The notes under the pieces were generated by a model. That model had not been told where the DNA came from and did not search any database. It worked only from the letters and a program-made list of their open reading frames with translations. Shown here piece by piece: positions 1-22,120 of a DNA stretch of 64,000 nt (position 1 is its first letter; every line of letters begins with the position of its first letter). Both the position numbers and the translations under genes were made by a program. This stretch comes from Pyropia yezoensis (Eukaryota > Rhodophyta > Bangiophyceae > Bangiales > Bangiaceae), in contig CM020620.1 in assembly GCA_009829735.1 (NCBI GenBank), positions 16,217,186 through 16,281,185 on the forward strand, given 5' to 3'.

Positions 1-181
1 TCCGTGCGCCTCCCCACTTTATTTGCCGTCCGATGAAAGGGCAGACGCACTCGGGAGGGTGAGGAGGGGGGTGTCGGGCGCCCACAGGGGTTCAGCTGCA
101 GCAACACCGGCAGCGCGTTGACCGGGGGTCCGCGCGTCCTGGCTGGCGGGGGTGGCCGGCACAAGGGGGTCAGCGGCGGCA

Positions 182-221
<40 letters not shown>

Positions 222-1137
222 CCCCCTCCCACATGCGGAAACAAGATTGGCCTGGCCGCTTTGCGTGACGGCCAGCGTGACCGGGGGGTCTGGGGCTCGC
301 GTCCGTGTGGACGACGCGGCCGTGCGGCGCGGCACCGATAAAGGGTACGGTGTGATGGCCCACAGCTGCAATTTTGTGGGTGCTGGCGCAGTGAAGTGGC
401 TGGCGAGGGGCCGGAAGCCCACCGAGCTCCTCCCCCCGACACCATACACGGCCCTGCATGGCCTTCCACGTATACCCTCTCCCCCCCCCCCCCCCCCCCC
501 CCCCCGTTCTTTGTGGGGCGCCGGCGCGTCGCGCATATGTGGCTGAGCGGTTTTCAGCTGGCGCCCCCCCCCCCCCCCAGCCTCATCCATGCGATCGGCC
601 CGTCGAGGGGGGCCATGCGAGAGGTGTCTGAGCGCCCCGCATCTTCCCTTGGCACGATCTCCCACCCACCCGGCTCCCACCCTCCCCGTGGGGCTCTGTG
701 CCTGGCTGTCCAGTCAATGCCAATCACCGGCCGGGGCACCCAGCAGCCCCCCCTCCCTATCTGGATGGCGGTATTTGCCGGGACATTGGACAACCTTGTT
801 GGGTGCCCTTTACTTTCGTATTTGAATATCCCAGTACGATATGGAGGGTACACGCTGCGCCTCTGCCATGGGCGTGGAGTGTCCAGGAGAAGGGCGGCCT
901 GACCCCAAACCCTATGCCATCGCGTGTGCTCGTGCGGTGGCCTCGCTCTTGTCCCCCCGAACTCTTCGTACACCTGCGACAGCACACGGACCGTTTTTTC
1001 AGACCAAGACGCGCACCTTTCCCGGCACTCCGTTCCCCCTACACCGTCCCGCCCACCCACCCGCCCACCCACCATCCTCACCCTCACCCCGTCCCTCAAC
1101 CCGCTCCCGTCCACCCCACACCTCCCACCGACTGACC
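1..1137. other. Homopolymer-rich leader region, no supported gene
   Basis: This stretch holds long pure C runs (about 187-218, 481-505 and 564-578) separated by G+C-rich unique sequence. The open frames over it owe their length to Pro or Gly codons made by the C runs and carry no recognisable domain. The last few hundred bases are pyrimidine-rich and lead into the ATG at 1138, so they may hold the 5' UTR or promoter of the next gene. No TATA box is obvious. Confidence 0.5.
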
Positions 1138-3408: not shown

Positions 3409-3419
3409 CTTGTGCGGCC

Positions 3420-4335
3420 CCCCCTCTCAAAGCCGTCCCTGGTGTCGTCCAGTGGTCGTGGACGCCTAAACTTCGGGACGCACTTTACTCGTCCCCTTCC
3501 CTCTCAAACCCTCCCTGGTGTCGTCCAGTGATCGTGGTCGCCTAAATTTTGGGACGCATTTCACTCGGGCCCCCCTCTGAGACCGTTCCTGATGTCGTCC
3601 AGTGATCGTGGTCGCCTAAAGTTCGGGACGCATTTCACTCGGCCCCCCCTCTGAGACCGTCCCTGGTGTCGTCATGTGATCGTGGTCGCCTAATTTTCGG
3701 GACGCATTTTAATCGGCCGGCCCCCCCTCACCAAGCCTCCCTGGTGTCGTCCAGTGATCGTGGACGCCCAAACTTCGGGACGCACTTTAGTCGGCCCCCC
3801 CTCTGAGACCATCCCTGGTGTCGTCCAGTGATCGTGGTCGCCTAAATTTCGGGACGCATTTCACTCGGCCCCCCCTCTGAGACCGTCCCTGGTGTCGTCA
3901 AGTGATCGTGGACGCCTGAAGATCGGGACGCATTTTACTCGGCCCCCCCTCTGAGACCGTCCCTTGTGTCGTCCAGTGGTCGTGGTCGCCTGAGTTTCGG
4001 GACGCATTTCACTCGGCCCCTCCTCTGAGACATTCCCTGGTGTCGTCCAGTGATCGTGGTCGCCTAAATTTCGGGACGCATTTCACTCGGCCGGCCCCCC
4101 CTCTCCAAGCCTCCCTGGTGTCGTCCAGTGATCGTGGACGCCCAAACTTCGGGACGCACTTTAGTCGGCCCCCCCTCTGAGACCGTCCCTGGTGTCGTCC
4201 AGTGATCGTGGTCGCCTAAATTTCGGGACGCATTTCACTCGGCCCCCCCTCTGAGACCGTCCCTGGTGTCGTCCAGTGATCGTGGTCGCCTAAATTTCGA
4301 GACGCATTTCACTTGGCCGGACCCCCCTCTCCAAG
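3420..4335 (+). repeat. 74-bp tandem satellite array, about 12 copies
   Basis: The core TGTCGTCCAGTGATCGTGG recurs at 3443, 3519, 3593, 3667, 3745, 3819, 3893, 3967, 4041, 4119, 4193 and 4267, mostly every 74 bp. Two copies (3745 and 4119) share private changes: an extra ccgg step giving 78-bp spacing, ctccaagcc-type sequence before the core, and gtggacgccc after it. They lie 374 bp apart, which is five units, so the array carries a higher-order repeat. The core is a partial inverted repeat (GTCGTCCA/TGGACGC). The last unit runs directly into the next array. It does not look protein-coding. Confidence 0.93.
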
Positions 4336-4336
4336 C

Positions 4337-5836
4337 CTGCGCACGTCAGCAGAACAGGGGCGGGGGGGAAAAGGGGGAGGCCCCGCGACGGCTTTAAGCA
4401 CGTCAGCAGAACAGGGGGGGGGAAAAAGGGGGAGGCCCCGCGACGGCTTTAAGCACGTCAGCAGAACAGGGGGGGGGGAAAAAGGGGGAGGCCCCGCGAC
4501 GGCATTAAGCACGTCAACAGAACAGGTGGGATGCGGAGGAAAGGGGGAGGCCCCGCGACGGCTTGAAGCACGTCAGCAGAATAGGGGGGAGGCGGAGGAA
4601 CGGGGGAGGCCCCCAGACGGCTTTAAGCACGTCAGCAGAACAGGGGGGGGGGAAAAAGGGGGAGGCCCCGCGACGGCATTAAGCACGTCAACAGAACAGG
4701 TGGGAGGCGGAGGAAAGGGGGAGGCCCCGCGACGGCTTTAAGCACGTCAGCAGAACAGGGGGGAGGTGGACGAAAGGGTGAGGCCCCGCGACGGCTTCAA
4801 GCACGTCAGCAGAACAGGGGGGGGAGAAAAGGGGGGAGACCCCGCGACGGCTTTACGCACGTCAGCAGAACAGAGGGGGGAGAAACGGGGGAGGGCCCGC
4901 GACGGCTTCAAGCACGTCAGCAGAACAGGGGGGGGGAAAAAGGGGGAGGCCCCGCGACGGCTTTAAGCACGTCAGCAGAACAGGGGGGAGGAAAAAGGGG
5001 GAGGCCCCGCGACGGCTTTAAGCACGTCAACAGAACAGGTGGGAGGCGGAGGAAAGGGGGAGGCCCCGCGACGGCTTTAAGCACGTCAGCAGAGCAGGGG
5101 GGAGGCGGAAGAAAGGGGGAGGCCCCGCGACGGCTTCAAGCACGTCAGGAGAACAGGAGGGGGGAAAAAGGGGGAGGCCCCGCGACGGCTTTCAGCACGT
5201 CAGCAGAACAGGGGGGGGAGAAAAGGGGGGAGACCCCGCGACGGCTTGAAGCACGTCAGCAGAACAGGGTGGCGAAAAATGGGGAGGCCCCGCGACAGCT
5301 TTAAGCACGTCAACAGAACAGGTGGGAGGCGGAGGAAAGGGGGAGGCCCCGCGACGGCTTGAAGCACGTCAGCAGAACAGGGGGGAGGCGGAAGAAAGGG
5401 GGAGGCCCCGCGACGGCTTCAAGCACGTCAGCAGAACAGGGGGGGGGAAAAAGGGGGAGGCCCCGCGACGGATTTCAGCACGTCAGCAGAACAGGGGGGG
5501 GAGAAAAGGGGGGAGACCCCGCGACGGCTTGAAGCACGTCAGCAGAACAGGGGGGGCGAAAAAGGGGGAGGCCCCGCGACGGCTTTAAGCACGTCAACAG
5601 AACAGGTGGGAGGCGGGAAAAGGGGGAGGCCCCGCGACGGCTTTAAGCACATCAGCAGAACAGGGGGGAGGCGGAGGAAAGGGGGAGGCCCCGCGACGGC
5701 TTCAAGCACGTCAGCAGAACAGGGGGGGGGGAAAAAGGGGGAGGCCCCGCGACGGCTTCAAGCACATCAGCAGAACAGGGGGGGGGAAAAAGGGGGAGGT
5801 CCCGCGACGGCCCTCAAGCACGTCAGCAGAACAGTG
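4337..5836 (+). repeat. 57-bp tandem array, about 27 copies
   Basis: A unit of about 55-59 bp built on GCACGTCAGCAGAACAGG, a purine-rich G/A block, then GGCCCCGCGACGGCTTTAA repeats from 4341 (next copies at 4399, 4454, 4510, 4569) to 5836. Variants such as CGTCAACAG with GTGGGAGGCGG recur every few units, so this array also has a mixed higher-order order. It begins exactly where the 74-bp array ends, sharing the sequence ctccaagcct at the junction. Reading frames across it are repeat translations, not genes. Confidence 0.93.
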
Positions 5837-6138
5837 GGGGGGAAATGGGGAAAGATGGGGAGGGGGGGGGGGGGGGGGGGGGGGGGGGTGGGAGGGTGGG
5901 GGGGAGAAGGGGAGCGGAGATGAGTTGTTTGGCGACGACTGCGCACGCTGGCTCGGGGCCCAGTCGCACTCCACACGCACGATGCGCACGACGCGCACCA
6001 AGGCAAGCACGCATCCATGCACGCATGCGCGCATGCATGCGTGCTTGCGTGCGGAGATGCCTGAAGCCCGAATCCCACTCAAAGTAAACTCGTAGTGTAT
6101 TGGGCTACATGAGTTTTGAGTGCATTCCGATATCTGTA
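5837..6138. other. Poly-G tract and GCAT-type simple sequence
   Basis: A run of about 28 G (from 5861) and a G-rich tail follow the tandem array. A GCATGCGC/GCATGCATGC alternating stretch follows at 6010-6050. The segment ends in unremarkable sequence up to the TA that flanks the next mobile element. No gene is visible. Confidence 0.6.
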
Positions 6139-6354
6139 CAGTGCGACCCCTCACTTGCCCTGGGGTAGACCAAGGAGGTGGCCCCCCTTCCAGTGTCCGA
6201 CAGTTGTCCTGAGATGTTCAGATTTCAGCGATCTGGACGGTATGAGCCAATCAGCGCCCGTCAATCGCCCGAATATGAGCCGCCCGGCCGGGCCACTTCA
6301 CGCGTACCCCCCCCTCGGCACAACTGCGGGGCGGCCAAGTGAGGGGTCGCACTG
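6139..6354 (-). mobile_element. 216-bp MITE with TA target duplication, copy 1
   Basis: The element begins CAGTGCGACCCCTCACTTG and ends with its exact reverse complement, giving a 19-bp perfect terminal inverted repeat. It is flanked on both sides by TA (6137-6138 and 6355-6356), the signature of Tc1/mariner-type insertion. It has no coding capacity. A second copy lies at 38257-38485 in the opposite orientation. A MITE mobilised in trans by a mariner- or pogo-type transposase is the natural reading. The Tc1 element at 58992-60333 starts with CAGT too but has different TIRs, so it is not an obvious partner. Confidence 0.9.
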
Positions 6355-6366
6355 TATTACTACGGG

Positions 6367-9300
6367 TCAGGGAGGGTGTTGCACATGCCCGCCAGACATT
6401 TTGCGACCACAGCCGGCCCCCCCTCCACGCCGCCCCCCCCCCCCACAAGCGCTGATAGCCGCGCCGTCGCGGCGGCGGCGGCTGCCCCGCCCCCCTCTGC
6501 GACAACGCCAGCCCACACTGCCTGCGAGGCGCAGCGGCAGCGGCAGTGACGTCGGTGGCGTCGGTGGCGTCGGTGGCACGGGTGACGTCTGGGGCGTCCC
6601 CGCCCCCCACCCCAGCCACCCCCCCCCCCCCGCACCCGCGGCGGCAGCGGCGGGGATGGCAAACGAGGGACCGGCCAGCGCCACGGCCGTTGCCGCGGCG
6701 ACCGCCGCAACCGCGACGGGCGGGGGGCCCAGGGCGGCCACCCACACCGCTGCCGTGGCGGGGGTGCGGCCAACCGTCGCCCAGGGGGTGGTCAAGAGCC
6801 CCAGGGCGGCCGTCGCAGCCGCCGCGCCTTCCCGCGTGGCGGCCAACGCGGGACCACCACCGCCGGCACCGCCGCCGCCGCCGCGAGTTGGGGGGTCACC
6901 CGCTGGGGGGGGGTGCGGGGCGGCGCCCGCCGCGCCTCCACCACCCCCACCACCCCCACCACCCCCCCTGCCGCCCCTGCCTGTGACGACGGCCGCGGCG
7001 GTCACCGCCGCCACCTCCGCCTGGGCGGCGAGGCCGCTGCCGTCCCCCCCCCCCTCCCCCATCGCCGCCGCCTCTGCCGCCAGCAGCCCCCCCTGCCCCG
7101 CCGTCAGCGCGCACGCGGCGGCCGACAGCGCACCGACAACGACCACCGCGAAGGCGGGGGGCAGCCCGCCATGCGCCAGCGCGCCGAGGCCCGCCGCAGC
7201 GTTCCACCACGCCTTGGCGGGCTCGGCGGCGCTGGCGGCGAGCACGGAGAGGCCGGCAAGGCCGGGCGTAGTGCCGCCGCTACCTCCGCCGCACCCCGCG
7301 TCGGGGGGGGGGTACCGGCATTGCTCCCCAGGTGGCGGAGGGGGGGGGGCACAGCTGCCGGGGAGTGCCTGCGAGCGCGCCCAGCGCGCGCGCCACCGCC
7401 ACCCGCAGCGCCACCGCGTCGCGGGAGGTTGTGGGGGGCGCGGCGGCGGCAGCGGCGACAGCGGCGCCCCCACTCCCCGGAACTCCAACAGCGGCCAGCA
7501 GTTCGGAAAGCGCGGCGGCGCCAGCTGCGCTCGGCGCGGCGCGGCGGCGATTGGCGAGCACCACCAGCGGCGCGGCGGTCGCCGTCGCTGCCGCCCCACC
7601 CACCGCGGAGGCGGTGGCGGTGGTGGCAGAGGCGGCGGCGGCAAGGGCGGCCATTGCCGTCGCGACGGCGCCCGCAGCGGCTGGGGCAACGGCCGAGGCG
7701 GCCGCCGCGGCCACGGTGGCGGCGGCTGCGCGCACGCCCGCCGCGGGGTCCCGCGCGAGGAGCCGGGCGAGCGCGTCGGTGGCGGCGGGTGGTGGCGGTC
7801 GGGATGGCGGTGGGGGTAGGGGGGACGGAGAGGGCGGCGATATTCGCGCCGGTGCTGTTACTGACGGCACCGTCGCTGGGGGCGGCAGTAGTGGCGGTGA
7901 TGGCCGCCGCTCAACGGTCCCCTCTCCCGGCGGTGGAAGCAGCGGGTAGGGGGCGACAACAACGCCTTCCGCGGCAGCACGCACCAGATGAGAAGGCGTC
8001 GGAGGTGGCGGGGAGGACGAGACGGCTCAGTACGGACGCTGCCCAGGCGTCCACGTCCTCAATCCCATCGTCATCGGCACCGGGGCCGTCATCGTCACAA
8101 TCACGGTCCCCCGGGCCACCGTCCTCTGCGCCACCGCTGCCCACAGGAGCTACGGTCACCGCACCCGACACCGCCGTGGCACCCACGCCCGCCGCCCACT
8201 GCCGCCACCTGGCGGCCGTGGCGGCCGCCGCGACCGCCCGCACGCCGTTTAGGCAGTCCAGGTCCGCCACCCGCCCTACCCTCCCACTGCCACCTCCCAC
8301 GGCGGCGGCCACCCCCCCAGCAGCGCCCACCGCACCCGCCCCGCCGTCACGGCGGCCTCGCCCACAAACGTCCACCCACCGGCACCGCAGGCGCGTAGCG
8401 CGGCGGCCACCCACCCTTGCTCAACGGCCAACCGGCGCCTCTGCCTCCGGCAGTCGCGGCAGTGACGGCGGTGGAGCGGCCGCCTCGGCGCCCGTGGCAA
8501 GTAAGGCACCCACCAGACGGGCCATGGGGGCGGCCGCCACGCCGCGGACGCCCGTCAGGGACGCCGTCGCCGCCGTCGCGTCCGCAAGCGCCGCGGACCA
8601 CCCCCCCCCGCCGCCGCTCCCGCCGCCGCCGCCGTCGCCGCCACAGTCACTGCCGCCGTCGCCGCAGCCGCCATCACTGACCTTACTGCCGATGCCGCTG
8701 GCGCGCGCGGCCGGGTGCGGAGGCACCAGCACCGACGACAAGACCACCGCAAGGGAGGGGGTGATGGCCGCCGCGGCGGCCGCCACAACTCTTCCACGCC
8801 GCCGGGGGGGGGCGCCGCCGCGGCAGCTGTCGCTCCCGTTGCTGCCATGGCCACCGCCGCCGACCGCCACCACCCCCCCCCCCCCGCGCAGGGGTGATTA
8901 AACCGTGGTTCAGGACTAGGGCCCGCAACCGCCTTCACGTTTTGCGGATCCGATTGTGGACCCCTCTCACGGTAACGTACGCCCAACTTTCGCCCTGTTT
9001 TTTTGCGGGCCAGCTGTGGCCATGACCTCGGGCGACAACCACCACGCTGCTCAACATGATCTTGTAGCGCAGGGCGTGACGCTTCACGTGGTCGTCGCAC
9101 GCATCGCCGCCAGCAAGCGACGCTGGCAGGCGGCGGCTGCGCTCCCGAATACCCATGGGCGGTGGGGGGAAGGCAATGGACGACGCAGAGCGCGGCGCAC
9201 CCGCCTCCCGCCGTGACCCGCCCCGCCGTCGCCGGTTGCCGCCACTCGCGGCAGACACGGACGGGTCCAGCGCCCACCCATCGACCGCCGCAAACACTGG

Positions 9301-9930
9301 CGATGGCTCTCCGGCAGCGGAAATCCCCCCCCCTCCCACGACGGCGGTGGTGACAGCGGCGGCGGCGGCAGCTTCCCGCCGCCGTCGTACCGACAATGAC
9401 GTGGGGGGCCGAAACAGTGGCCGCGTGGCGGCCTCAGCAGCTACGGCCGCGGCGGCGGCGGCGGCGGCCAGGTCCGCACTGCTGCCACCGCCGCCGCCGC
9501 CACAGCTTCCACCTGGGCCAGACCCTTCCCGAGAGCGCCCCCGCCCACGGCGCGCCGCCCGTCCGCGGCTGGTCGACCGGGGGCGGGGCGGCTCTCCCAC
9601 CTCCCCCAGGCCGTCCGTCCCTGTCGCCAACGGTATGTCCCCGGCAGTCACATAACGGGCACCCTCATCTTCCAAGCTGCTGCCCACCGCCAAGGCTGTC
9701 CCACCGCCGCCGCCGCCACCACGGCCGCTGCCGCCACGACCAACGCTGCCACCACGCCGTAGCGGACGGGGGCGGCTCGAGCCGCTGGCATTGCTGGAAT
9801 AGCCGCCGCACCGCACCGACGTGCTGCCGTCACTGGGACCGTCGTCGTCGGCGGGCCAGCCGCCGCCGCTGCCGCCGGCTCGGCCGCCAAGCCCGCGCGA
9901 GGAGCCACTCGCGCGGACGCGGCGGCTCAT
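6367..9930 (-). CDS. Probable HEAT/ARM-repeat protein gene (exon structure unresolved)
   Basis: Several minus-strand frames give Ala/Leu/Val-rich helical segments, while the opposite strand mostly reads as Arg/Pro. An N-terminal piece (about 9930-8935) is Ser/Gly/Arg-rich. Downstream, blocks such as ALARLLARDPAAGVRAAAAT (within 7280-7984), AVALRVAVARALGALAG, GLAGLSVLAASAAEPAKAWW (6367-7689 frame) and MARLVGALLATGAE (8421-8873) look like repeated amphipathic helix pairs of the HEAT or armadillo kind. The frame changes at least three times, from introns or from homopolymer length errors; I could not place splice sites. No specific family is identified. Overlapping plus-strand frames remain an alternative. 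Confidence 0.4.
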
Positions 9931-12324
9931 GGCCGCCGCCGACGGGCGGGCGGCGTCAACGTCACCGCCGCTATGTCACTGTCCACCCGGGGATGGGCGA
10001 GCACTCACCGAGTGCAACAAAGAGAAAGAAAAGATGAGAAGCACACAACCGCAGCGTTCGCGCCACGGCCTGCAGGCCGGTGCTACTGACTGGACCTCCC
10101 AACCCCCCACCCCTCCACCCCACCCCACTTCACCACACCCCACCCCACCCCACCCCACCTCCCTCCCCCCAAAGAGAAAAACTCCGGCACCGGCTCCAAG
10201 GCGACCACCAGCGCGTTGCCTCTTAGGAGGAAACGTGGCAGCTGTTCGATCGAGTACCACAGTCTAAGTAAAGGGACTTGACGGCCAGTGGCCCGCTCCC
10301 ATCTATATTACTAGAGAGTTTTTGCAACCCGTTCGTGGGATCAAAAGTGGGCAACGTGGCGAGACACGTATGCCACGTAGTGCCAAGTGGCATCACGATC
10401 CCACGATTGCTTTACCATTTATCGGTACATGGACCCTCCCACGTCGACATCGGGGGATCGATACGCTCAACGTGTCATAAAACGTGCCACAAGCCCTCCC
10501 TCGGATGCCGTCGCATGGGGCGTGGGGCCCCCTTTCCCGGCGACGGCCCCTATAACCTATGATGACAGACAACCTCTCGTCACCACCTGACAACTACGAT
10601 AGGGGAAGAAGGCGGAGGTGGAAGACCAGTGGCTGGGTGGACTGCCACCGCTTGTTGATGGAGAGGGTGTGAACGACCGAATAGGCAAGTTGACCGGCGG
10701 GCGGCCGGGATACAGCCAGACGGACGATAGAGCCCGTCTCCCTAGCCAGTAGGTGCCACCCTTTGGCGCAGACGCGGGGAAGGGGGGTCGGATGTGTGAG
10801 AGAAGACTTTACTTTATTGTTTCTCTAGTTCCCTCGATTCCCCTCGTCTTTCCTCGCCTGCCCATGTACTGAGGTCGCCCCCTCCAGACTGCCGTCCCGT
10901 CCCCCCAGGTGGCGCCTCACTTTTTCTGTCTCTACCCCTCCTGGGTGCTTCACCCCAGCGGAAGTCAACTGGCGGTACCCCGGGCGGTCCCTGGTCTGCA
11001 CTTGATGCGGGAGAGTGGTTCAGGGTGCGCTTCGGGGGGAGTCGGGTAGTCTTGAAGCCCGACCCCACGAAGTCGACGGTGTGCAAAAACTCACGATCCA
11101 GCTCACCGTTGCAATTGATTTATCGTTAGCTATTCCCACGAATTAGCCACGAATGCTTCCCACGACCTGGTTGCAAAAACTCTCTACTGTGCGCGGTCTC
11201 GGCGCCGTCGCGTTAGATAGGCGTGAACTCTGCCACGTGGTCGACTCTCGTCGGATCTGGCCGGGACTGGCCTGGAAACCATCCCTGCAGCGTCGCCTTC
11301 TCGACACTCACAACCGCGGCTCCACCGTTTGTCTGCGACTCCCCGCTCCCTGCCCCCTGCTCCCGTGCCCCGTGCGTGCCCCTCTACGCCTGTATCTATG
11401 TGGTGTGGCTGCGCAGGTACGTTGCTTGCCAGTGTGTCGAGTGGCGGCGCAGATACGTCGGCCTGCCCGCTCCCTGTTCTTTGTCTTGTTTGTCCACCCT
11501 CATTGAGTGGTGACCACCCTGCGCACACGCCGTGGCGGTTGACTTGACCACCTTGCCCCTCATTCTCCCCCCCCCCCCCCCTCGACTGCTGTCTCCCCGA
11601 GGATGCTTGAAAATTTGAATACCGAGCGAGCCGGCCGTTGTCGGTCGCGCCTCGGCTGCGGAGTACACAACCTGATGGGGAGCAGCGTGGAGATTATGAC
11701 GCGGCGGCGGTCGCCTCGTCGGCGGGCGTCGTGAGACTGTGAAGGGACGTGGTTGTGGTGGTGCTGGGTGGACAGGAGGTAGCAAGACTGGTCGACTAAC
11801 CGCGCCTTCTGTAGCTACTGCATCGGTCGATCCGACCGCTCTCTGCCATTCCTGCCTGTCCCGTACTGCACAGTTTTTCTTCCCGGTAGGCTAGCCGGCG
11901 CCCCCCCCCTTCGTCACTCAGTTTGACTGCTCTGTCGAGTTGGTGGACGGCACGTGTCGAACCAAGACTGTCGATGTGCCGTGCATCACCCACGCAACAG
12001 CACACAGGTGACCTTCTCCCGGTGTGTGCTCGAGACGACCGCTTCGGCCGCCTGTACGACAGAGACGGTGGAAAAGCGGAAGAGCGCTAAGGCGTGCCCG
12101 AGGCCGACGCCGTCGCCGCCGCCGTGCCTCGTTAAATACATTGCGTCAGCGCCAGCGCTGTCCGACGACCAAGACGGGGTAGGTGCCGGAGGGTCACCCG
12201 GGTGTGCACATGACATGAATATATCCACACTGTGTGCGGACGTTTTGTTGTGCTGCTGCACGCAGCATCCCTGCTGCACGCAGCATCCCCCCGTCTATTC
12301 GTTGCAGTCCCCCCCCCCGTCGAC
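9931..12324. other. Gene-poor stretch, lower G+C
   Basis: No reading frame here shows a recognisable domain. The stretch contains a short (ccccac)n tract near 10110-10160 and an imperfect hairpin TGCCAC/GTGGCA near 10370. Short open frames (for example 10814-11086 on the minus strand) have no features I can interpret. I see no tRNA or transposon ends. Confidence 0.4.
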
Positions 12325-14633
12325 CTACATGGCGCACGCGCTCTGAACGGCTGAGCAAACCCCTCTGCAGAGCGAATCTCCGCCCCCCCGCACCAACAAG
12401 GCGTAGCAGTCTCTTCGTCTGACGCCCGGGCGCAGCGGCGCGGCGAGTGCCGTTTCCGCTACCCCCGCTCCCCACCCCCGCCGGCTATGGCGGCTGCGAC
12501 CGGCAACCGCAACGGCGGCGGCTGCGGGGGAGGCGGTGACGGTTGAGGTGAGGGGCGGCGTGTGTGCGTGCAAGACCACACACAGCGTTTTGTTGGCCGA
12601 GGGGTGCGGCGGAGGGGGGGGCGACGCCACCTCAGCGAGCGCGGCGGGCAGGGAGGCCTCTACCGCTGCTGCCGCCGCGGCCAGCGTCCAGTGGCTGTGC
12701 CGGCCGTGGCGGCGGCCTTGGCGGTGGCGGCGCCGCCGTGTGGCCGAGCCCCCCGACGTTGGGTGTGCGAGCCGCCTGCACACCGCAACGGGCGGCGGCG
12801 CGGGCCACCGCGGGCCTCCCAGGTCGACACGCACCACCACCGTGATGGCGCCCATGGGTGTGGGTGTGCCTTGGCTCGCCACGCTCCGCAGCGGCGGCTC
12901 CCCCGGGTGGACTGTGGAGGGAGGGTGGCGGGGGTGGGTGGAAGAGTGGCTGGGGGGGGGGCGGGGGTCAGGTGAAGGGGGTGGAGATGAGGTGGGGAGT
13001 GGAGTTTGTAGCGTCCTGGCCCGGCTGACCCGCAGCTGTGCGCAGGTTGGCCGGGCGCGCCTGGCGCGCGCCCTCGGCCCTACGTATAGTTGACAGTGTG
13101 TACGCACCGCATGCCGTCGTGGGCGGGGGGGATTGTCAGGCGCCACCCCTTCCACGTCGGTCGTGGCGATGGCCCCCTCTCTCGCCTCCATTTCAGCAGT
13201 GTCACGAAGGTACGGCACTGTTACACACTGAGGACATATTCATACATGCAGTGCAGTCTTTCATACAGTTCAGCTAGGCGCCCGCTGAGCGTACTGGGGA
13301 GCCTGCCTGCGGGTGTCAGGCAGTGGTCGTAGTGCGCTGCGGGACGCCCACGTCAGACTGGCACCTCTGCACCCTCCCTGAGCATCGGGGCGGGGTCAGC
13401 AGCGTGGGGAAGAGGGGGAAACGGGCCACCCCTCAGGAGGTGAATCGGCCACCGCCTCTGTTGCCCGCCGTCGTGGCGGCGGCGGCGACGGGGAAGTACC
13501 CGCGGCGCAGTCAGCCGTCCAGCCCAGCGGCCGCTGGTTGTGTAAGGGGTCAAGCGCGCGCATGCCAGGCACGCCAGGGGGAAGCGACGCTATCCGCTGC
13601 GGGCACCAACACGGGGACGCGCAGTGGGGATGGGCTTTGGCAGAGGTCGTACGGGGGGGCGAGGGTGTGGGACGACTGTTTCCTCTGCTCGGCGGTCCAC
13701 CTGAAGCCGCTCCCGCGGGGTGGTCCCCATTGGGCGCGGGGGTGGGCAGCGGCGGCGTTGGTCGTAGTTTAAGGGCAGCGTTGGCGGGCGTGTGTGTGGC
13801 GGGACACGTTGCGTTCCTTGGCCTTGTTAAGGTGAGACTGCCGGCCCTTCACGCCCCGTTTCTCCCGCCTCTGCCGCCAGCGCAGCTGCTGCCCCCTGCG
13901 CCCCCGCAGCCACTGGTGGGGAGTGGGGGGAGAGGGACGGGGGCGCGTGCGGAAGGGGCTCCAATTGGCGGGAAGGCCTCCACGGCCCCCCGCTGTGCGG
14001 CGCGCAAAATACCTCACGCCGCTCATGGTACAGGCTGCATCAGCAGCCGCCCTCCGACGTCGTGAACCACTCGCCGCCGTCGCCATCGTCCCCGCCAGCC
14101 CTGCCCCCCCCCTGCCCACGAAAAAGTGGGCTGCCCACACTGTCTCACTTCCCCCGCCCCCCCAACCCCCGCACTCCCCAAGAGGGAGTGCCGTCGCCTC
14201 GACTCACCCGCTCGCCTTTCCAAATTGGTTGCCGCCCCTGCCCCTTGACTTCCCCCCTTTCTTTTTTAGAGTAGTAGTAGCGCGGTCGTCGCCGCCTCCC
14301 CCATCCCCCCCCCCCCCTTCTCCCGACAAGAAACAGCTGCCACACCCCTGCAGGGAGCTGCCGCTCTAGGCACCCTCCGCCCCCCTTCCCTCCGGGGCCT
14401 CAAGGGGACGACGCCCCGTAAGAAGGTCGGGCCATCACTGGAAATCCCTCCAGCGGTCCCCCGTCTGCCACAGTTAGGCAAGGGTCTCCCAGTCGCGAGA
14501 GCGGGGGGCGGGCGGGCAGCCGAAGCTCTCTTGAGTCCGAGAGCTGCAACACTCTGGCAGGCAGCGCTGCCTGCAGCTGCGTCACCCGTCAGAGAACAAC
14601 GCCACGCGCTCCCGCGCTTGTGAAGCGCGCTGC
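12325..14633. other. G+C-rich stretch, coding status undetermined
   Basis: Both strands carry moderately long open frames (minus 12325-13218; plus 12536-13093, 13538-14065 and 13923-14369). None has a domain, signal peptide or repeat that favours one strand. Part of the 13.3-14.1 kb sequence could be an Ala/Gly-rich exon on the plus strand, but I cannot support boundaries. Confidence 0.3.
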
Positions 14634-14722
14634 TCATCCGTTCCCCTCCCCCCCACATCCCGCCATTTCCCCTCCCCCCCACATCCCGCTATTTCCCCTC
14701 CCCCCCCACATCCCGCCACCCC
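14634..14722 (+). repeat. Short tandem repeat, 26-27 bp, three copies
   Basis: ACATCCCGC recurs at 14655, 14681 and 14708, each copy preceded by a run of C and followed by ATTTCCCCTCC or a C run. It lies just upstream of the inverted 74-bp satellite block. Confidence 0.8.
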
Positions 14723-14770
14723 CCCCCCCCAATTGCGGGTGAGTGCCGGAGCGGTGGCTACGCGGGGTGG

Positions 14771-15018
14771 GTGTAAAAAGCAAACTGTGAATTTGGTCGT
14801 CCACGATCACTGGACGACACCAGGGGGGGCGTGAGAGGGGGGGGGGTGTAAAAAGCAAACTGTGAATTTGGTCGTCCACGATCACTGGACGACACCAGGG
14901 GGGGCGTGAGAGGGGGTGGGTGTAAAAAGCAAACTGTGAATTTGGTCGTCCACGATCACTGGACGACACCAGGGGGGGCGTGAGAGGGGGTGGGTGTAAA
15001 AAGCAAACTGTGAATTTG
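14771..15018 (-). repeat. Second 74-bp satellite array, inverted
   Basis: Units start at GTGTAAAAAGC at 14771, 14846, 14920 and 14994 (75, 74, 74 bp); three are complete and the fourth breaks off at 15018. On the minus strand each complete unit contains CTGGTGTCGTCCAGTGATCG, the same core as the array at 3420-4335, with the same period and a similar C-rich lead. Here the core is a clean hairpin, GTCGTCCA/TGGACGAC with a 7-nt loop. The second half of the unit (AAATTCACAGTTTGC) has diverged from the first array. Confidence 0.92.
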
Positions 15019-15033
15019 GCGTGGTCGTTGGTC

Positions 15034-15061
15034 GTACACTACATATGTATCGGTAGTGTAC
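15034..15061. repeat. 9-bp perfect inverted repeat next to the satellite
   Basis: GTACACTAC (15034-15042) and GTAGTGTAC (15053-15061) are perfect complements around a 10-nt loop. The hairpin follows the broken fourth satellite unit and may mark the array boundary or a small insertion. Confidence 0.7.
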
Positions 15062-15954
15062 GGCCCAACTGTGGGGGCAGCCGGCTGTGGGTCTTGGCCG
15101 CGGGCGGCGGTTTGACCGAGGGCGCGGGAGAGCCGCGCCGGGTGACGAGCGGCGCGGCTGGGGGGGGGGCAGGGGAGGCTGGAAGGGGAGCGGAGGTGCT
15201 GGCGGCGAGGCCCACCTGGGGCCAGCGATGGCCGCGGGTCCCCGCGGCGCGGAAGCGGCGACGACGATGGCCGAGTGGTTGGGTGGGGACGAGCGCGCCC
15301 CCGCGGTGGAGCGGGACGGGGAGGCCGGGGCGGGGCGGGCACCGCCATTGGGCGGCGGCCAGTGGCAGCCGGATTTGACAAGGCGACGGGACGGCGCCGA
15401 CGCCGACGTCACCGCAGACAGCAGCGGGACGGGAAGGCTGTGGCCGACGCCCAACGCGGGGAGCGGGCCGAGCGGCGCGGTGGACCGGCACCAACGCTGC
15501 ATCAGCCCTGCACGGCGGAGAAGGCCCGGCCTTGGACCTGCCCCTGCACCACACGGGGAGCGGGACGAGCGGGGCGAGGGGAAGCGAATCGACTGTCGCA
15601 GGGACCGGGTGTGGGTGATGAGCAACGGGGAGGGCGCGCGAGTGTATGGGATGGATGAGGGTGGGTGTGTGGGGTGGACGAGGGTTGGTGTGTGGCATGT
15701 GGGTGGCGAGATGAGCGCGCGCGGGTGGAGCGCCCATCTTGCGTCGTATGGAGGGGCCAAGTGGGCCCCGGGTGGGAAGCGTGAGTGGAGGATTGGGGCG
15801 GAGGACCGCGGCTGCCTGCCGGTACACAACACCGGCAGGGGAGGGCGCGGGGGAGAGGCAGGAACAACACAGGGACTTTACTCTCACGTACTCGCCAACG
15901 TGGGGCACCACGCGCGCCTGCTCACAGCTACGCGGCGCGCAGTGGGTGGACTTT

Positions 15955-16227
15955 CCACATGACGCTGCTCAAGGGCCTGCGACTGGGGTCATTTGGGATC
16001 ACCATGGTGAACTGTGCCGACATGCTGGCCCTCATCAACGTTGCCGGGGGAGTGTGCGTGGACGACGGCGCTGCCAATGTCGATGTGGTTGTCATAGGCG
16101 GTGCAAAGGTGGATAAGAAGGGAGCGCGGGGTGGGGGGGGGGGCGAGGGGCGGCGGATTTCGCGGTGGTTCATGGTCAGGGGCGGGAGGCCCGTGTGAGT
16201 GACAAGTGGCTACCAGACTGTATCGCA
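15955..16227 (+). CDS. BRCT-domain fragment
   Basis: After a possible acceptor (gcgcgcag, ending at 15942) the frame reads LLKGLRLGSFGITM, MLALINVAGGVCVDDG, then VDVVVIGGAKVDKK. After a G-run interruption (about 16119-16185) it resumes as VSDKWLPDCIAKW, then LPFTAYLV, then stop. That order is the BRCT pattern: hydrophobic first strand, the I..aGG.v motif, a hydrophobic strand, and the W..DC helix. BRCT domains bind phosphopeptides in DNA-repair and checkpoint proteins. Only one domain is present; the rest of any parent gene is not visible. The G-run segment is probably an intron or an indel. Whether this is an exon or a relic is open. Confidence 0.45.
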
Positions 16228-16750
16228 AAGTGGGAGTGCTTGCCCTTCACGGCCTACCTGGTCTAGTACATCGTGCAATGTTGCATGTCCTTGTTGTCCG
16301 CATGGATGGGCGGACGGGTTTGGGATGGTCTCCAGTCCCGTCGCCGAACTCGGTTTGTGCCTCTGTACGGGGCGGCCGCTGCCCACCGACTGGAACGAAT
16401 TCGCCGTGAAGGGGCCTACAAGGCGTACTCTGTGTTCGAGGCAGAGCGGATTCCCCCTCCCTCCCCCCAGACCGGGCAGCCAAACCAGCCATGGAACCCG
16501 GTGACCTCGGGTGCTATTCTGTCGCCTCTGTGTCACGCCACTGGTGCAACGCATGAGGAGAGGACCGGCGGGGCAACCCTGAGGTTGGGTGGGATGGCGG
16601 CCAGTGGGTTGGCCCAGGGGCGTGTGGCTGGCAGTTCTACCGGCCACCAGTCGACAGCCCACAATAAACAGAGGGTGGCCCGTGTCGGTGAGTAGTGGCT
16701 CACAAACTGTATTGCAAAGTGGGAGAGCATGGCGTACACGGCCCACCTGG
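16190..16750 (+). repeat. Direct repeat of the BRCT tail (16190-16262 and 16677-16750)
   Basis: The roughly 74-bp segment encoding the last BRCT helix recurs 487 bp downstream with about 75-80% identity. Both copies begin GGCCCGTGT and end CACGGCC(T/C)ACCTGGT. The second copy has a stop (TAG) before WLTNCIAKWES. The sequence between has an open plus-strand frame without a recognised domain. Confidence 0.75.
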
Positions 16751-16863
16751 TAACGGGTGGAAAAAAATAGTAATAATGTGCTCCCCCACACCATAGTTTT
16801 TGTGTCTCTTCTCTCCCCTTCCTTAAAACGGTTCACCCACTACCGTGTCCGTCGACCAGACGA

Positions 16864-17415
16864 CTACGGTGGGGGTGGGGGCTGGGGTGTGTTGGGTGCT
16901 GCCCCCGCCCGCCCAACTCCTGCGCTTCCGACAGAGTCCGACTCGTCGCCAGAACCCCTGCATGTCTGTCGCCGGTTGCGGCTGCGGCTGCCACGGCCGC
17001 GCGGGGCGCCCTGGTGCTCGCCCACCGACGTCGTGGCCCCGGCGCTCCCCCCGTCTCGGTTGTCACGTTTGCGGCCGTCCCTTCTTGTCCGTCTGGCGAC
17101 CTTGCCGACGGGTACTGATTCCGATACTGCTTCTTCTCGGGCGCGCTTTTGGGCTTGACTCTGCTTCCTCTTGTTGACTCGGACAGTGGTCAGCCTTTTC
17201 ATTGCTGCGAGGGACACCCAGCCCGCCAGGACATCGTGCGTGACTCCGCGGCTTTCCAGCACGACAGCAACGTCTGGAGGCATGGTCCCGTTTCGCCAAC
17301 ACTCGAGAACGTACGGCAGCCTTGCACAAAGGTTCTCTGAGAGACGGTGGCGAGCAGTGTGGGGGTTCTTTTGTCGCATGGGCCGCCTTGGAGGCCATCC
17401 TTTGGGCTGGTCCCA
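16864..17415 (-). CDS. In-frame extension beyond the Ulp1/GIY-YIG stop codon
   Basis: Directly after the TAA at 17416-17418 the same frame stays open for 183 codons, beginning WDQPKGWPPRRP and then an ATG at 17379. The first hundred residues (LSENLCARLPYVLECWRNG, AGWVSLAAMKR) look like folded helical protein. The rest is basic and Ser/Gly/Arg-rich, ending in Pro. Options are a second gene, stop-codon readthrough, an unrecognised intron, or a degraded element whose single ORF acquired a TAA. The shared frame and zero gap favour one original ORF. Confidence 0.5.
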   Translation of the reverse strand, partial: WDQPKGWPPRRPMRQKNPHTARHRLSENLCARLPYVLECWRNGTMPPDVAVVLESRGVTHDVLAGWVSLAAMKRLTTVRVNKRKQSQAQKRAREEAVSESVPVGKVARRTRRDGRKRDNRDGGSAGATTSVGEHQGAPRGRGSRSRNRRQTCRGSGDESDSVGSAGVGRAGAAPNTPQPPPPP

Positions 17416-20400
17416 TTACTTCTTGAAGTCGGGTACGGCCGCTCGAAGTCGGGTCCGGCCTTGGAGAACAGCCCGGTCTGCTTCCCATAAAACGTCACAG
17501 TCTGTCAGGGCGTGCCTCAGGAACGTCTGTATCAGTGGGGCCCGCCACCTGCACCTTGTACGAACTCTCGCCAGTACCTTGCCAAGTTTTGCATGGCGTC
17601 CTGTCGTCGGCACGTCCGCGTGGTGGTACTGTGCGTGAAACTCCTTGATCTGGTGGACAAAGTCCGCGACCCGGCCCGCGACGCGCATGCGCTGGCGTTG
17701 GCGGGCCTCGGCGTGAAACGGCATGGACAGAAGAACAGAGTTGAAAGTCGGACGCTTCCCGTTTGCAGCGCCCTCCGCGTCGGTGGCCAGCCCACCGTTC
17801 CTCAGGACAAAGCTCAGCTCTGCGAGCGCTGCCCACTCCTCTGCAGCGTCTTGTGTGGGTGCGTCCTCCCACATCATGGCACAAAACACCAGAAAGGCGC
17901 TGGCACCGTGCTCCCTCAAAGCGGTGTGAAACGCGTCGGATGCCAAGTCGCGGAGGTGCTCGTCCGTGCGGTTCTTGAGCTCATCCGCCGCCCGACCAGA
18001 TCGAACGACACGCCCAATGTAGATCCTGCCGTCGTCAGGGTGACCTTCTTTTCTCAGTACCCATACGTAGAGCATGCCGACGGGGCCGCCCTGGCGGCCA
18101 GTGCCACCTTGCTTCCGCTGCGCAGGAGAGGCCCTGGATCCGAGGACATCAAGGCCCTCGGCATGTGCTTGGAGTGCCTGTTGCCGTAGGGTCTTTGCCA
18201 CGGCACGGTCCCCGTCGGTGACCACCCCGCCGATGCAAACGAGGTCAGGCCAAGACGAAGAGCACGCGGTAGCGGCATCATCTATGGGGGCGACGGCTTT
18301 GCCTTCAAGAACGCGAAGGATAGCGTTTGCATCCGCGTCACCTATGGGTATGGTGTCTTGATCCGGGGGGCTTGCTGTGGACGCGTTGTCTCTCGATGCG
18401 CGCGCGACGCTCGGCAAAGGTCCAGGAGAACTCGGGCGTCGGCCGTGACTCGAACGAGAGCTGGCGGACCCCTTGGACTGGTTACATTGCGCCGGTGACC
18501 TCCGGCGCCGGTAGGGTGAGCACGGAGACGTAGAGCGAGGCGCAGGTCGGCGCCGTGCCCCACCCCGGCATGGGGGGGGAGAACTGTTGCCCTCAACGGG
18601 CTTAGGTCGTTGCTTGGGCTGCCGCGCCGCAGGTGGTGGAGAGCGGGATGGAGGCGGGGTCGGGTAGAAAAAGGAAGAAGAAACCGCCGGCGATGGGGAG
18701 GGGGATGGGGGAGAGGTCGGGTAGAAAGAGGTGGCAGATGAAGATTGTGCAGCACTGGGTGCAGGCGGCGCGACTGGGATGAGGAGACGCCGCGTACGGA
18801 CTGACCGTCGTTGTACAGCAGGTGGTGACGACGATGGCGACCGTGACCGACACGGGGACGCAGCTGCCACAGGGGAAGACAGTCCACGGAGAGGTGCTCT
18901 CGTGGACATGTCTGTCAGTTGCCGCCCTTGATCAGCGTCTGTAGACGGCGGCGGGGTGGGTGACGAGCGGGGTGTTGGTCGTTGACGAAGGGGGTGAGGT
19001 CCCGGCGGTCCCCGTGACGGTACGTCCATCGGCGACTGTGTGCCCACATCTGGTTCGTTGGCTGGTGTGACGGGTGGTGGTGGCGGCACCGGGTCCGGGT
19101 GGGACGGGCTAGATAGGTGACAGGTAGAGGTGGATGCCGTGCGTGACAGCAGAGGCTGCGTCCCGGGGGGTGTCGGCCATGGCTGGGTAGACTCGGGCGC
19201 ACGGGCGGTGATTGTCATACCAGGGCCTTGCGGCGGCGGTTGAAGAGTCCCCACCAGAGGCGCGACTGGCGGCGGGAGAGGGCCCGCATGACAAGAGAGG
19301 ATGTACGGGAGAAGGGCAGTCGGGTCAGGCGGGACCGCGTGAGCAACCGCACAGAGAGGGCTGACCAGCCTCACAGCGGCCTCTGTAATGCCACCGTGGC
19401 TGGCTTGGCACGTCCCCCCGGCCACAACACCAGTCGCACAGAGGCCGGTGATGGCCTCGACTATGGTTGACCGGAACGACGTGGCCACCTCCAGCGACAG
19501 GGCGGAAGGGTCGAGCCCGAGCGCCAGACACGCCATACTGCACAGTGAGAAAGGCCCACAGCTGAAAGTGTCTTGCTGCTGGGGGGCAGGCGCAGTCTCT
19601 ACTTGGTGCCATGCGACCGTGCGATCTCCTTGTCGGGCAACGTCGTTTAGCCAGGTGATGACGTCATGGGTGGGGTGCGTGTGGGTTCCAACGACAGAGT
19701 TGGCAACCGACACTGCACCACTTGCCGTATCGGCAACAACGACCGACAAGTGGCCATCCGCGGCAATGGGAAGGACGAGCTTGTCAAAGGCAGAAACGTC
19801 CATATTCCGCGTCACATGCTCGACATTCTTCCAGATATAGGGCAGGCGCGTGTTCCCAACGGAAGGCCGTAGAGCGCCGTAGATGTAGCCATCAAAAATG
19901 TGGATGGGCCGAGCCCGTCGCTCGCTACACGCCCACCGGTTCACCACCATCAGCAGCACCTTGACCGCGTCCATCGCCACATCCGACAGCCACTGGGTTG
20001 GCTGGAGCAAAGTATCCAGCTCCGCTCGTCGCACTGTGACGCCCAGCACACGTAGGGATGGTGGCGGGCCACGGGCGGCAGAACCAATGGGGGGGGTGGG
20101 GACACTGTCGGTGGTGAACGACAGGAGGGTGGAGCAGCCGGTACCGCGGGCGGCAGCACGGGCAGTAGGCGACACGCCATCGGCGTCATGAGGGACGCCA
20201 CCACGCGCCGTCAGTGCCACGGCTGGAGGTGGTGGTGGTCGGGCCTCTCCCAACAACACGCCGGTTGAGGGAGACGGGTGCCACGCCGGGTGCCAAGCAG
20301 CACCAGCGGTGGTGCCTGCGCCACGAGCCGCATCAGAAACGCCGCCGGGGGTCACTAGAGAGGTAGCCAGTGTCTTGGGTGAGAGAGTCGGGGCGGGTAG

Positions 20401-20595
20401 GGTAGGGTATGGGGTGATCAGGTTGGCCTTGCCGAGGGGCGCCATTGGTTCCAATTGTTTACCGCCTGGCACATGACGTCCAGTAGTGGTCGCGGTCGCG
20501 GCGGCAGCAGCACGTCGGGCGGCCTTTCGTGCACGCCGCGTAAGGCGGTCCCTCTCCCTGACCCGCTGCTTTTCTTCTTCGGTGACAGCGCCCAT
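17416..20595 (-). CDS. Ulp1-type cysteine protease fused to GIY-YIG nuclease-like and HA-like domains
   Basis: The protein has 1059 residues from the ATG at 20595. A basic N-terminus (EEEKQRVRERDRLTRRARKA) precedes a C48/Ulp1-like peptidase at about 190-360: WLSD at 202, then ADGHLSVVVAD (His282), VANS (Asn299 at the Asp/Asn position) and QQQDTFSCGPF (Gln340/341, Cys346). A 450-residue Pro/Ser-rich linker follows. Residues 840-930 resemble a GIY-YIG nuclease: MLY at 841-843, YIG at 859-861, Arg and His near 876-880, and Glu926. Residues 975-1040 (ADFVHQIKEFHAQYHHADVP, LGK, VLWEA) resemble a helicase-associated domain. Ulp1 proteases and GIY-YIG nucleases both occur in mobile elements, so an element protein is likely, but no RT, transposase or TIR was found. 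The ORF is intact except for what follows its stop. Confidence 0.75.
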   Translation of the reverse strand: MGAVTEEEKQRVRERDRLTRRARKAARRAAAAATATTTGRHVPGGKQLEPMAPLGKANLITPYPTLPAPTLSPKTLATSLVTPGGVSDAARGAGTTAGAAWHPAWHPSPSTGVLLGEARPPPPPAVALTARGGVPHDADGVSPTARAAARGTGCSTLLSFTTDSVPTPPIGSAARGPPPSLRVLGVTVRRAELDTLLQPTQWLSDVAMDAVKVLLMVVNRWACSERRARPIHIFDGYIYGALRPSVGNTRLPYIWKNVEHVTRNMDVSAFDKLVLPIAADGHLSVVVADTASGAVSVANSVVGTHTHPTHDVITWLNDVARQGDRTVAWHQVETAPAPQQQDTFSCGPFSLCSMACLALGLDPSALSLEVATSFRSTIVEAITGLCATGVVAGGTCQASHGGITEAAVRLVSPLCAVAHAVPPDPTALLPYILSCHAGPLPPPVAPLVGTLQPPPQGPGMTITARAPESTQPWPTPPGTQPLLSRTASTSTCHLSSPSHPDPVPPPPPVTPANEPDVGTQSPMDVPSRGPPGPHPLRQRPTPRSSPTPPPSTDADQGRQLTDMSTRAPLRGLSSPVAAASPCRSRSPSSSPPAVQRRSVRTRRLLIPVAPPAPSAAQSSSATSFYPTSPPSPSPSPAVSSSFFYPTPPPSRSPPPAARQPKQRPKPVEGNSSPPPCRGGARRRPAPRSTSPCSPYRRRRSPAQCNQSKGSASSRSSHGRRPSSPGPLPSVARASRDNASTASPPDQDTIPIGDADANAILRVLEGKAVAPIDDAATACSSSWPDLVCIGGVVTDGDRAVAKTLRQQALQAHAEGLDVLGSRASPAQRKQGGTGRQGGPVGMLYVWVLRKEGHPDDGRIYIGRVVRSGRAADELKNRTDEHLRDLASDAFHTALREHGASAFLVFCAMMWEDAPTQDAAEEWAALAELSFVLRNGGLATDAEGAANGKRPTFNSVLLSMPFHAEARQRQRMRVAGRVADFVHQIKEFHAQYHHADVPTTGRHAKLGKVLARVRTRCRWRAPLIQTFLRHALTDCDVLWEADRAVLQGRTRLRAAVPDFKK

Positions 20596-21904
20596 CTCAG
20601 GTAGACGTGGCAAGAAGCACAAGTGGGGGGGGTTCTACCGGTCCCCGCCTCGTCTCCACACCCGGGCACGTGTGCGTGCGAGGTGACGTGGTGGAAGAAA
20701 AAAAAAGTACCCGTGGTGTCTCCAGTGGGTTGGTGTGTCCATGCAGCACATCTGTCTCGGCGTAGCATGTGGGAAACAAGGCCGGCGCCCTGTACGAATT
20801 TGTGATGAGGGCGAGAAGTGCGCCCGGACCACCTGATCGCACGCGTCTACCATGCGGACAAGCGCACCACCTCTCGCGTCTGTCGTCCGCCATTCCGACC
20901 AGCGCACCACGACGTCGCGTCGTCAGGGTCCTCCCGGTTCGCTCGACCACGCAAGGTGAGGCGGCGTATTGGAGGAAACGCGGTCGACATGAATGTGACA
21001 CCCGTGGCCGTTCGGTGACGCCAATCCAAATAACAGTGTATACACTTTCTATTCGGGAACACATCTCCCAGATATGGATTGTCGTGGTTTCCCTTTCGGG
21101 TGTGTGTGTCGGTGTCATCGGGTGAAAATAGACAAGTCAATTTGCGCGGTTTCGCTGATCTGATGGTCGTTCTCGGCTCAGTTCGTATATAGATATGGGG
21201 ATACCTAGACCGGTCAGATTTTCCAATCATCCAACGGCAGATTCGAAAATCTGCCAGGATTGAACCACCGACGTGCATGCAACTGAGATGGATGCTTCGG
21301 GCAATGGAGATTGTGTGTATGTGGCGTGGCAATCCGACGACGCACCCGATTGTCTGAGCCGGGCAATGGGGATTGTGAGCGTCAGGGCAGGGAACGACAT
21401 GTACATGCACAGAGAAGTACGACAGGCGGGCCCTCGGTGGGCCCTCGGTGAGGTGACTCGGGGGGGGAGTGGCGGGGGGGGGGATGGTGGCGCTCAGTGA
21501 CATCGGGGCAAGGGCAGCCGCCGAGGCGACCTGCTGCCGCTGCCGCCGCCACCGAAACCCGCCGCCACCGCCGCCGCCGCCACCGCCGCTACTGCCGTGC
21601 CCGCGGCGGTCTCGGAGGCGTGCGGGCCTTCTGGCGGGGACGCCCAGCGGCTCCACCCACCTACCCGACGAGTGTCCACATTCGCCGTGGCCAACGAAGC
21701 AGTGCACCACGAGACATACAAAAGGAACCCTTCAACATGCACGTACGGGAAAGCACTCTCTACGAGCTCTTTGTATAGGTGCAGCGAGTACTCAAGAACG
21801 ATGTGCGTCTGCACCTCCAGCCTAGAGCAAGCTATGGAGGTGGTCGACCGTCGCATGGTGCCCAACCAATGCAAAACTGTGGAGGAGGGTGCCGGCCGCA
21901 GCCA
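20596..21904. other. Intergenic region upstream of the fusion ORF
   Basis: This is the head-to-head interval between the minus-strand fusion gene and the plus-strand NAPE-PLD region. It has an A+T-richer part (21020-21300) containing the hairpin pair listed separately, then a (ccg)n tract at 21530-21600. No convincing coding frame was seen. Confidence 0.4.
21215..21255. other. Two mutually exclusive hairpins
   Basis: GGCAGATT (21236-21243) pairs with AATCTGCC (21248-21255) around CGAA. On the minus strand this is an 8-bp stem with a UUCG tetraloop. The same right arm can instead pair upstream: CAGATTTTC (21215-21223) with GAAAATCTG (21245-21253). The overlap means only one can form. No transcript is known for this site. 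Confidence 0.6.
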
Positions 21905-22120
21905 ATGGCGGATGACGCGCGGGCCACCCTCTTCCGCGTGTTTCGCCGCACGGCCGTGTGCCTCGGGGAGCCTCCCGACCGCCGCTTCTTCTTGTTCGAC
22001 GTGCCCGTCAACCCGCTCAACACGTCGGGGGTGGCGCCGGGCCACCTCGCGCGCTCTCGTCCCCCTACCTCTTTGTCCCCTTCTGCGTGGCCCTCCACCC
22101 TCTTCTTGGACGATACACAG
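21905..22120 (+). CDS. Possible short first exon or small ORF
   Basis: From the ATG at 21905 the frame reads MADDARATLFRVFRRT, then RRFFLFDVPVNPLNTSG, balanced in composition unlike the surrounding low-complexity frames. It reaches exactly 72 codons at ACACAG|GTACGG, a good splice donor at 22121. A possible acceptor, TTGACAG, ends at 22187. Joining there goes through a 15-C run and is one base out of frame with the NAPE-PLD start, so a homopolymer length error could hide a longer N-terminus. A separate small ORF is equally possible. Confidence 0.3.

Follow-up and report, generated by a model that had tools for sequence, protein, structure and literature searches.

Within a window of 64,000 nucleotides of the Pyropia yezoensis genome (C3:16217186-16281185), one long open frame, P0001, appears to join a Ulp1-type protease, a nuclease-like domain and an HA-like segment. 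Does this frame belong to a selfish element, or is it a gene of the host? The window was compared with the whole genome (107.5 Mb in 11 contigs) and with protein, domain and virus collections. The features observed are listed in Table 1.

Table 1. Features of the long frame P0001 and of the repeat surrounding it, in window coordinates unless a genome locus is given
Feature	Position	Strand	Basis or remark
P0001 (C48 + GIY-YIG-like + HA-like)	17416..20595	-	1059 codons, reads 20595 -> 17416
Peptidase_C48 domain, residues 201-377	19465..19995	-	Pfam; alignment to PDB 6dg4
Pro/Ser/Arg-rich linker, residues 420-745	18361..19338	-	sequence; second-position GC 0.72; dN/dS 0.72 (pooled point estimate)
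GIY-YIG-like nuclease domain, residues 841-952	17740..18075	-	hhalign; distant paralogue
HA-like segment, residues 982-1018	17542..17652	-	below Pfam cut-off
Separate 171-aa frame	16864..17379	-	corresponds to basic C-terminal tail of long frame in sibling copies
Upstream shared region	20596..22048	-	common to C1:40.09 and C2:26.36 Mb to ~22045; other copies only to ~21450
Downstream shared region	15020..17415	-	three copies share only down to 16486, then 74-bp array
74-bp tandem array, 3.4 units	14764..15019		
74-bp tandem array, 12 units	3415..4318		faces opposite way to array at 14764-15019
Region common to C2:32.66 Mb, with gaps	3415..14763		parts of 7007-14519 also at C1:40.08 Mb
Region common to C1:31.55 Mb	1..2885		match runs on left of window
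Fused open frame loci	window; C2:32.66, C1:40.08, C3:20.69, C2:26.36 and C1:15.60 Mb		

The long frame and its domains

The earlier note had described an uninterrupted frame of 1059 residues. Its coordinates and length are correct, and its strand is minus; the plus strand contains 21 stops in the frame of the same coordinates. The longest open run within positions 17001-21000 is 1072 codons, and no run in 300 first-order Markov simulations was longer than 463. This difference and the opening of the fused frame at six loci rule out a chance frame. The second-position GC of P0001 is 0.49-0.50 in the domain parts versus 0.72 in the linker, as expected if folded domains are connected through a low-complexity region. 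The linker is presumed to be disordered. The third-position GC, 0.64, is below that of most neighbouring ORFs measured.

P0001 is not the whole family protein, as it ends sooner than the longest sibling frames (1244 and 1239 residues). The frames at C2:32.66, C2:26.36 and C1:15.60 Mb extend into a basic tail, the frame at C1:40.08 Mb ends inside it, and those of the window and C3:20.69 Mb stop before it. The signature protein is ~1240 residues long in the longest copies and is composed of C48, a low-complexity linker, the GIY-YIG-like domain, the HA-like segment and the basic tail.

Sequence comparison firmly assigns the first domain to Peptidase_C48 (Ulp1), as had been proposed. The Pfam model matches the whole protein with an E-value of 8.7e-9 and 36 bits (cut-off 20.7) and the cut-out piece with an E-value of 3.4e-10. 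PDB 6dg4, a "Ulp1-like SUMO protease", matches the domain with an E-value of 1.1e-5. In the 6dg4 alignment, H282, Q340 and C346 are on the expected positions, and N299 occupies the position usually taken by Asp. Some C48 relatives with Asn instead of Asp are active.

The GIY-YIG-like nuclease was missed by curated models. The cut-out piece of residues 836-977 showed no match in Pfam or PHROGs, and a PDB sequence search with it returned nothing relevant. The motif order Y, YIG, R, E and N is nevertheless present (Y843, Y859-I-G861, R876, E926 and N952), together with H880. It is the same order as in the GIY-YIG superfamily, in the available part of its description (PMC1564403). In the hhalign comparison, residues 836-975 scored 21.0 against a viral GIY-YIG profile (13 sequences out of 36 loci, hand-picked after a motif filter and hence biased to the canonical motif), and 100 shuffles scored 13.6 or less. 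Among 16 tiles over P0001, only the two over the GIY-YIG region exceeded 13 (23.2 and 20.9; the next was 12.9), and none of the 33 decoy tiles, which came from seven further genes in the window, scored above 14.3. The corresponding domain of P0002, a second copy described below, scored 19.9. A broken paralogue at C1:8.39 Mb is 34% identical to the domain over 93 residues; it keeps the first Tyr, Y.G, Arg and Glu, but not the His and Asn. The structure prediction suggested in the earlier note, run in AlphaFold2 with the single sequence and no alignment, gave a pLDDT of 41.9 and no usable model, and thus counts neither for nor against the fold. Because the hhalign probability is only 6-16%, residues 836-975 are taken as a GIY-YIG-like nuclease domain that is supported, not proven; the motif order and the scores above all shuffles and decoys argue for it.

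The HA domain of the earlier note is retained only as a likeness. For the whole protein the Pfam E-value was 0.009; the cut-out piece gave 2.7e-4 and 21.6 bits, against the cut-off of 28.4. The match in P0002 is likewise under the cut-off. Residues 982-1018 are called HA-like only.

Copies of the gene and the larger repeat

The genome-wide search proposed in the earlier note revealed that the fusion is multi-copy, with one open frame containing both motifs at six loci on three chromosomes and broken copies elsewhere. As lower bounds, from searches that score the best candidates, 12 matches were found with the C-terminal piece and 19 with the C48 piece. Eight of the 12 extend over 312-313 of 313 residues with identities of 79-100% (the one at 100% is P0002), and seven of these eight have no internal stop. 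Among the 19, nine include the entire piece with 89-100% identity (a stop is present in one of them), another spans 220 of 246 residues with 80% identity, and two are fragments at 85-87%; the seven others, at 27-34% identity, are distant proteases. At C2:29.31 Mb, the C48 and GIY-YIG halves are in separate frames. A stretch of ~5 kb whose 469-bp ends are nearly identical, presumably an LTR element, interrupts the copy at C1:19.01 Mb.

The only protein-database relative is P0002, the P. yezoensis hypothetical protein I4F81_011859. It was the sole match of the C-terminal piece in a collection of 5.8 billion proteins, and two further protein-database searches returned no match; the candidates in these searches were proteins of limited length ranges. 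P0002 is 85% identical to P0001 over the whole C-terminal piece and 100% identical to C3:20.69 Mb. It is recorded as 313 aa without a Pfam domain, though its locus has an open frame of 1124 codons with both motifs.

Pooled Nei-Gojobori dN/dS values, which are point estimates over 15 pairs of six related copies (one copy without the N-terminal part), are 0.48 for C48, 0.49 for the GIY-YIG-like domain and 0.72 for the linker. In the other parts they are 0.22 (residues 745-838), 0.66 (HA-like) and 0.68 (residues 1-179).

Homology reaches far beyond the ORF. Positions 3415-21450 match, with gaps, C2:32.66 Mb on another chromosome, and positions 16333-22048 match C1:40.08 Mb at 98.2%. The latter locus also has 13222-14519 and 7007-9889 of the window, in order, with an insertion. 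At C1:31.55 Mb, a truncated C48-GIY region is followed within ~260 bp by the sequence from window position 2885 leftward to about -1211. Non-coding sequence is shared on both sides of the ORF and recurs at loci without the ORF.

A different downstream part is observed at three loci (C2:26.36, C1:15.60 and C2:29.30 Mb) and carries a second ORF, P0003. At C2:26.36 Mb, P0003 has 1280 codons on the opposite strand; it is repetitive, coiled-coil-like by eye, and has no Pfam match and no known family. The P0003 core has long matches at five loci. Three of them have the C48 ORF, and the other two have only non-coding repeat parts nearby, in one case 13 kb away. The copy at C1:15.60 Mb is a mosaic; its ORF matches the window copy at 98.5%, and its downstream part matches C2:26.36 Mb.

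The 5' edge of the repeat is at the identical place in two copies. One sequence that is continuous at C1:15.60 Mb borders on the repeat at C1:40.09 Mb, where 13 of 14 bases at the junction are alike. The other half of this sequence is to the left of the window, beside an inverted gene fragment, which leaves no basis for claiming a clean empty site. The loci compared for an insertion event showed neither clean ends nor a target-site duplication nor an empty site. The inverted fragment, ~1.5-2.2 kb left of the window, is 675 bp long and 87.7% identical to the 3' part (23424-24091) of a metallo-beta-lactamase-fold gene, which is located on the right side of the repeat.

Three relatives have a 74-bp array directly where the shared block ends. 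The 21-base core of the 74-bp unit, with one mismatch or less, is found at 177 genome sites, and its reversed control at 0. Among the sites listed, five repeat loci, as well as C1:10.80 and C1:30.81 Mb, have opposite-facing arrays ~8-50 kb apart. The pair at C1:10.80 Mb shows no match to either domain piece, and the pair at C1:30.80 Mb is accompanied by the downstream repeat part only. Arrays of one orientation only are observed, also among the sites listed, at C2:24.2, C3:5.4, C3:9.0 and C1:32.0 Mb. There is no array in the stretches examined at C1:40.08, C1:31.55 and C1:19.01 Mb. These single-orientation loci and array-free copies speak against a strict rule of paired arrays. Within the 74-bp unit, an inverted repeat of 8 bp was rejected as a universal site, as it is intact in three of the eight array consensuses listed. 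The units of these consensuses were picked by the core, so that core conservation there is partly built in. A minisatellite at 4341-5845 (26 units of ~56-59 bp) recurs at C2:32.66 Mb and, facing the other way, near C3:20.69 Mb.

Past the second array, the C2:26.36 and C1:15.60 Mb copies have a truncated gene with an AAA_12 helicase C-terminal region. It was rejected as a gene of the element, as it is beyond the second array and the downstream match of the third copy ends at the start of that array. The 3.7 kb beyond the second array are 99.4% alike between these two loci, possibly by recent duplication or transduction. The stretch C1:15.617-15.619 Mb has ~42% GC, while the window mostly has 60-79%; the frame neighbouring it is HSP70-like by eye.

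Mobility enzymes and comparison with known elements

The earlier note spoke of no polymerase and no transposase, and the Pfam searches bear this out in the frames tested. At 14.0-17.4 kb and at 20.5-22.0 kb, they recognised no polymerase, transposase or recombinase in any of the six frames. No mobility enzyme was found in the six frames of 0-3.4 kb, in three of the six frames of 6-14 kb plus single ORFs, or in the three plus frames of the downstream part at C2:26.36 Mb, P0003 and a third ORF. A Tc1/mariner-type DDE_3 transposase gene with helix-turn-helix domains is present at 59087-60247 on the minus strand. It was rejected as part of the repeat, being outside the shared region. Two CHRD-domain proteins are encoded at 31377-32657 (minus) and 54856-55941 (plus), and at the DNA level the two loci match each other in opposite orientations, with up to 86% identity over 425 bp. 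Scanning the window for Rfam families and tRNA genes gave 0 hits, and a prokaryote-genome scan with the C-terminal piece gave no result.

It is rather unlikely that the repeat is an element of a known kind (Penelope-like, Crypton, Ginger/Mutator or Helitron-like) in which C48-GIY is an accessory ORF and the main enzyme is elsewhere, lost or supplied in trans. The stretches examined stop short of some repeat ends, and both domain kinds have precedents. As far as the consulted parts of the papers go, several kinds of eukaryotic transposon have Ulp1 domains (PMC2836005, PMC3212892), and their possible role in transposition is already in print (PMC2836005). Cryptons resemble the present repeat as selfish elements encoding a C48 peptidase, which is an additional protein in CryptonS and in some (oomycete) CryptonF; they are defined by a tyrosine recombinase, which was not found here in the frames tested, and GIY-YIG is unmentioned in the portion available (PMC3212892). 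Ginger1 and Mutator, in the corresponding portion of their description, have Ulp1 in one protein with a DNA-cutting enzyme; this enzyme is a DDE transposase, whereas the present one is GIY-YIG-like and no DDE transposase was found in the tested frames of the shared region (PMC2836005). GIY-YIG is the endonuclease of Penelope-like elements, thus occurring in eukaryotic mobile elements, and it occurs separately in the large Terminons, which also have accessory ORFs; according to the part of the account at hand, these elements are defined by a reverse transcriptase, and none was found in the frames tested here (PMC6431247). The Helitron marks, Rep and a Pif1-type helicase, were likewise not found in the tested frames (three of six at 6-14 kb). 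Among the architectures given in the available text on the GIY-YIG superfamily there is no protease fusion, and the word "protease" has 0 occurrences (PMC1564403).

The literature search, covering titles and the starts of abstracts, with subscription papers thinly represented, returned no C48-GIY-YIG fusion in a eukaryotic element and no paper naming Pyropia together with Ulp1. A paper on Tn7 target selectors (PMC10293859) reportedly mentions both domain names, as does PMC3482391.

Possible nature of the repeat

The best reading, with a probability of about 0.5, is that the repeat in the window is one of the dispersed copies of a large selfish element of the nuclear genome, which uses the fusion protein. 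It is based on the fused frame at six loci on three chromosomes, the C48 piece whole at nine loci with 89-100% identity, and the non-coding flanks shared even at ORF-less loci. The five P0003-core loci, three with the ORF and two near non-coding repeat parts only, also support it, as do the dN/dS point estimates, lower in C48 (0.48) and GIY (0.49) than in the linker (0.72). No host-type family is named for the protein beyond its domains, and Ulp1 domains are recurrent in eukaryotic transposons in the parts of the papers available (PMC2836005, PMC3212892). The earlier note had offered a selfish element or a domesticated host factor; the multi-copy fusion with no polymerase or transposase in the frames tested fits the former over a single host factor, but no clean ends were found. 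Counted against a selfish element are the lack of a mobility enzyme in the tested frames and of clean ends or an empty site, the blocks of 5-18 kb common to several loci, as in segmental duplications, and the two kinds of downstream part differing between loci. The window copy is shorter than its longest siblings, the GIY-YIG domain is missed by curated models, and the long copies, fewer than 15, are few for an active element.

Long collinear shared blocks would also be seen if segmental duplication had spread a multigene family of the host, with the arrays and shared flanks as passengers. The truncated helicase-gene region, 99.4% alike at C2:26.36 and C1:15.60 Mb past the second array, the mosaic copy at C1:15.60 Mb and the inverted 675-bp fragment of a neighbouring gene left of the window point in the same direction. 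This explanation is unlikely, however, given that the copies are distributed over the three large contigs and differ in their outer flanks, that several are broken or interrupted, that non-coding parts recur without the ORF, and that the sole protein relative, from the C-terminal-piece query of the 5.8-billion-protein collection, is from the same species. Remnants of an endogenous large DNA virus are highly improbable: large viruses can carry both C48 and GIY-YIG domain kinds, and papers on them, reportedly including one on double jelly-roll viruses (PMC11071308), mention both domain names, but an IMG/VR exact-word scan and a tblastn search of phage records gave no match, and the tested frames contain no viral hallmark domain.

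If the repeat is a selfish element, the HA-like segment and the basic tail would hold the protein on DNA, and the GIY-YIG domain would nick or cut the target. The C48 protease may remove SUMO from host silencing or repair proteins at the target. DNA synthesis or joining would be supplied by the host, by P0003 at some loci, or by an unrecognised enzyme. A tentative and rather improbable extension is that these repeats represent a new class of giant element (at least 18 kb), having opposite-facing 74-bp arrays as bounds or punctuation and moving by GIY-YIG cleavage of the target. In such an element, the cleaving protein would also contain the SUMO protease, P0003 would be a second protein, and host DNA synthesis would take the place of any polymerase, transposase or recombinase encoded by the element.

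If the selfish-element reading is true, DNA cutting and SUMO removal would be coupled in one polypeptide. This would provide a direct handle on why Ulp1-type proteases are found in so many unrelated transposons. The repeats described for nori, a cultivated seaweed, would also gain a large family, one copy of which has so far been entered only under a short hypothetical protein.
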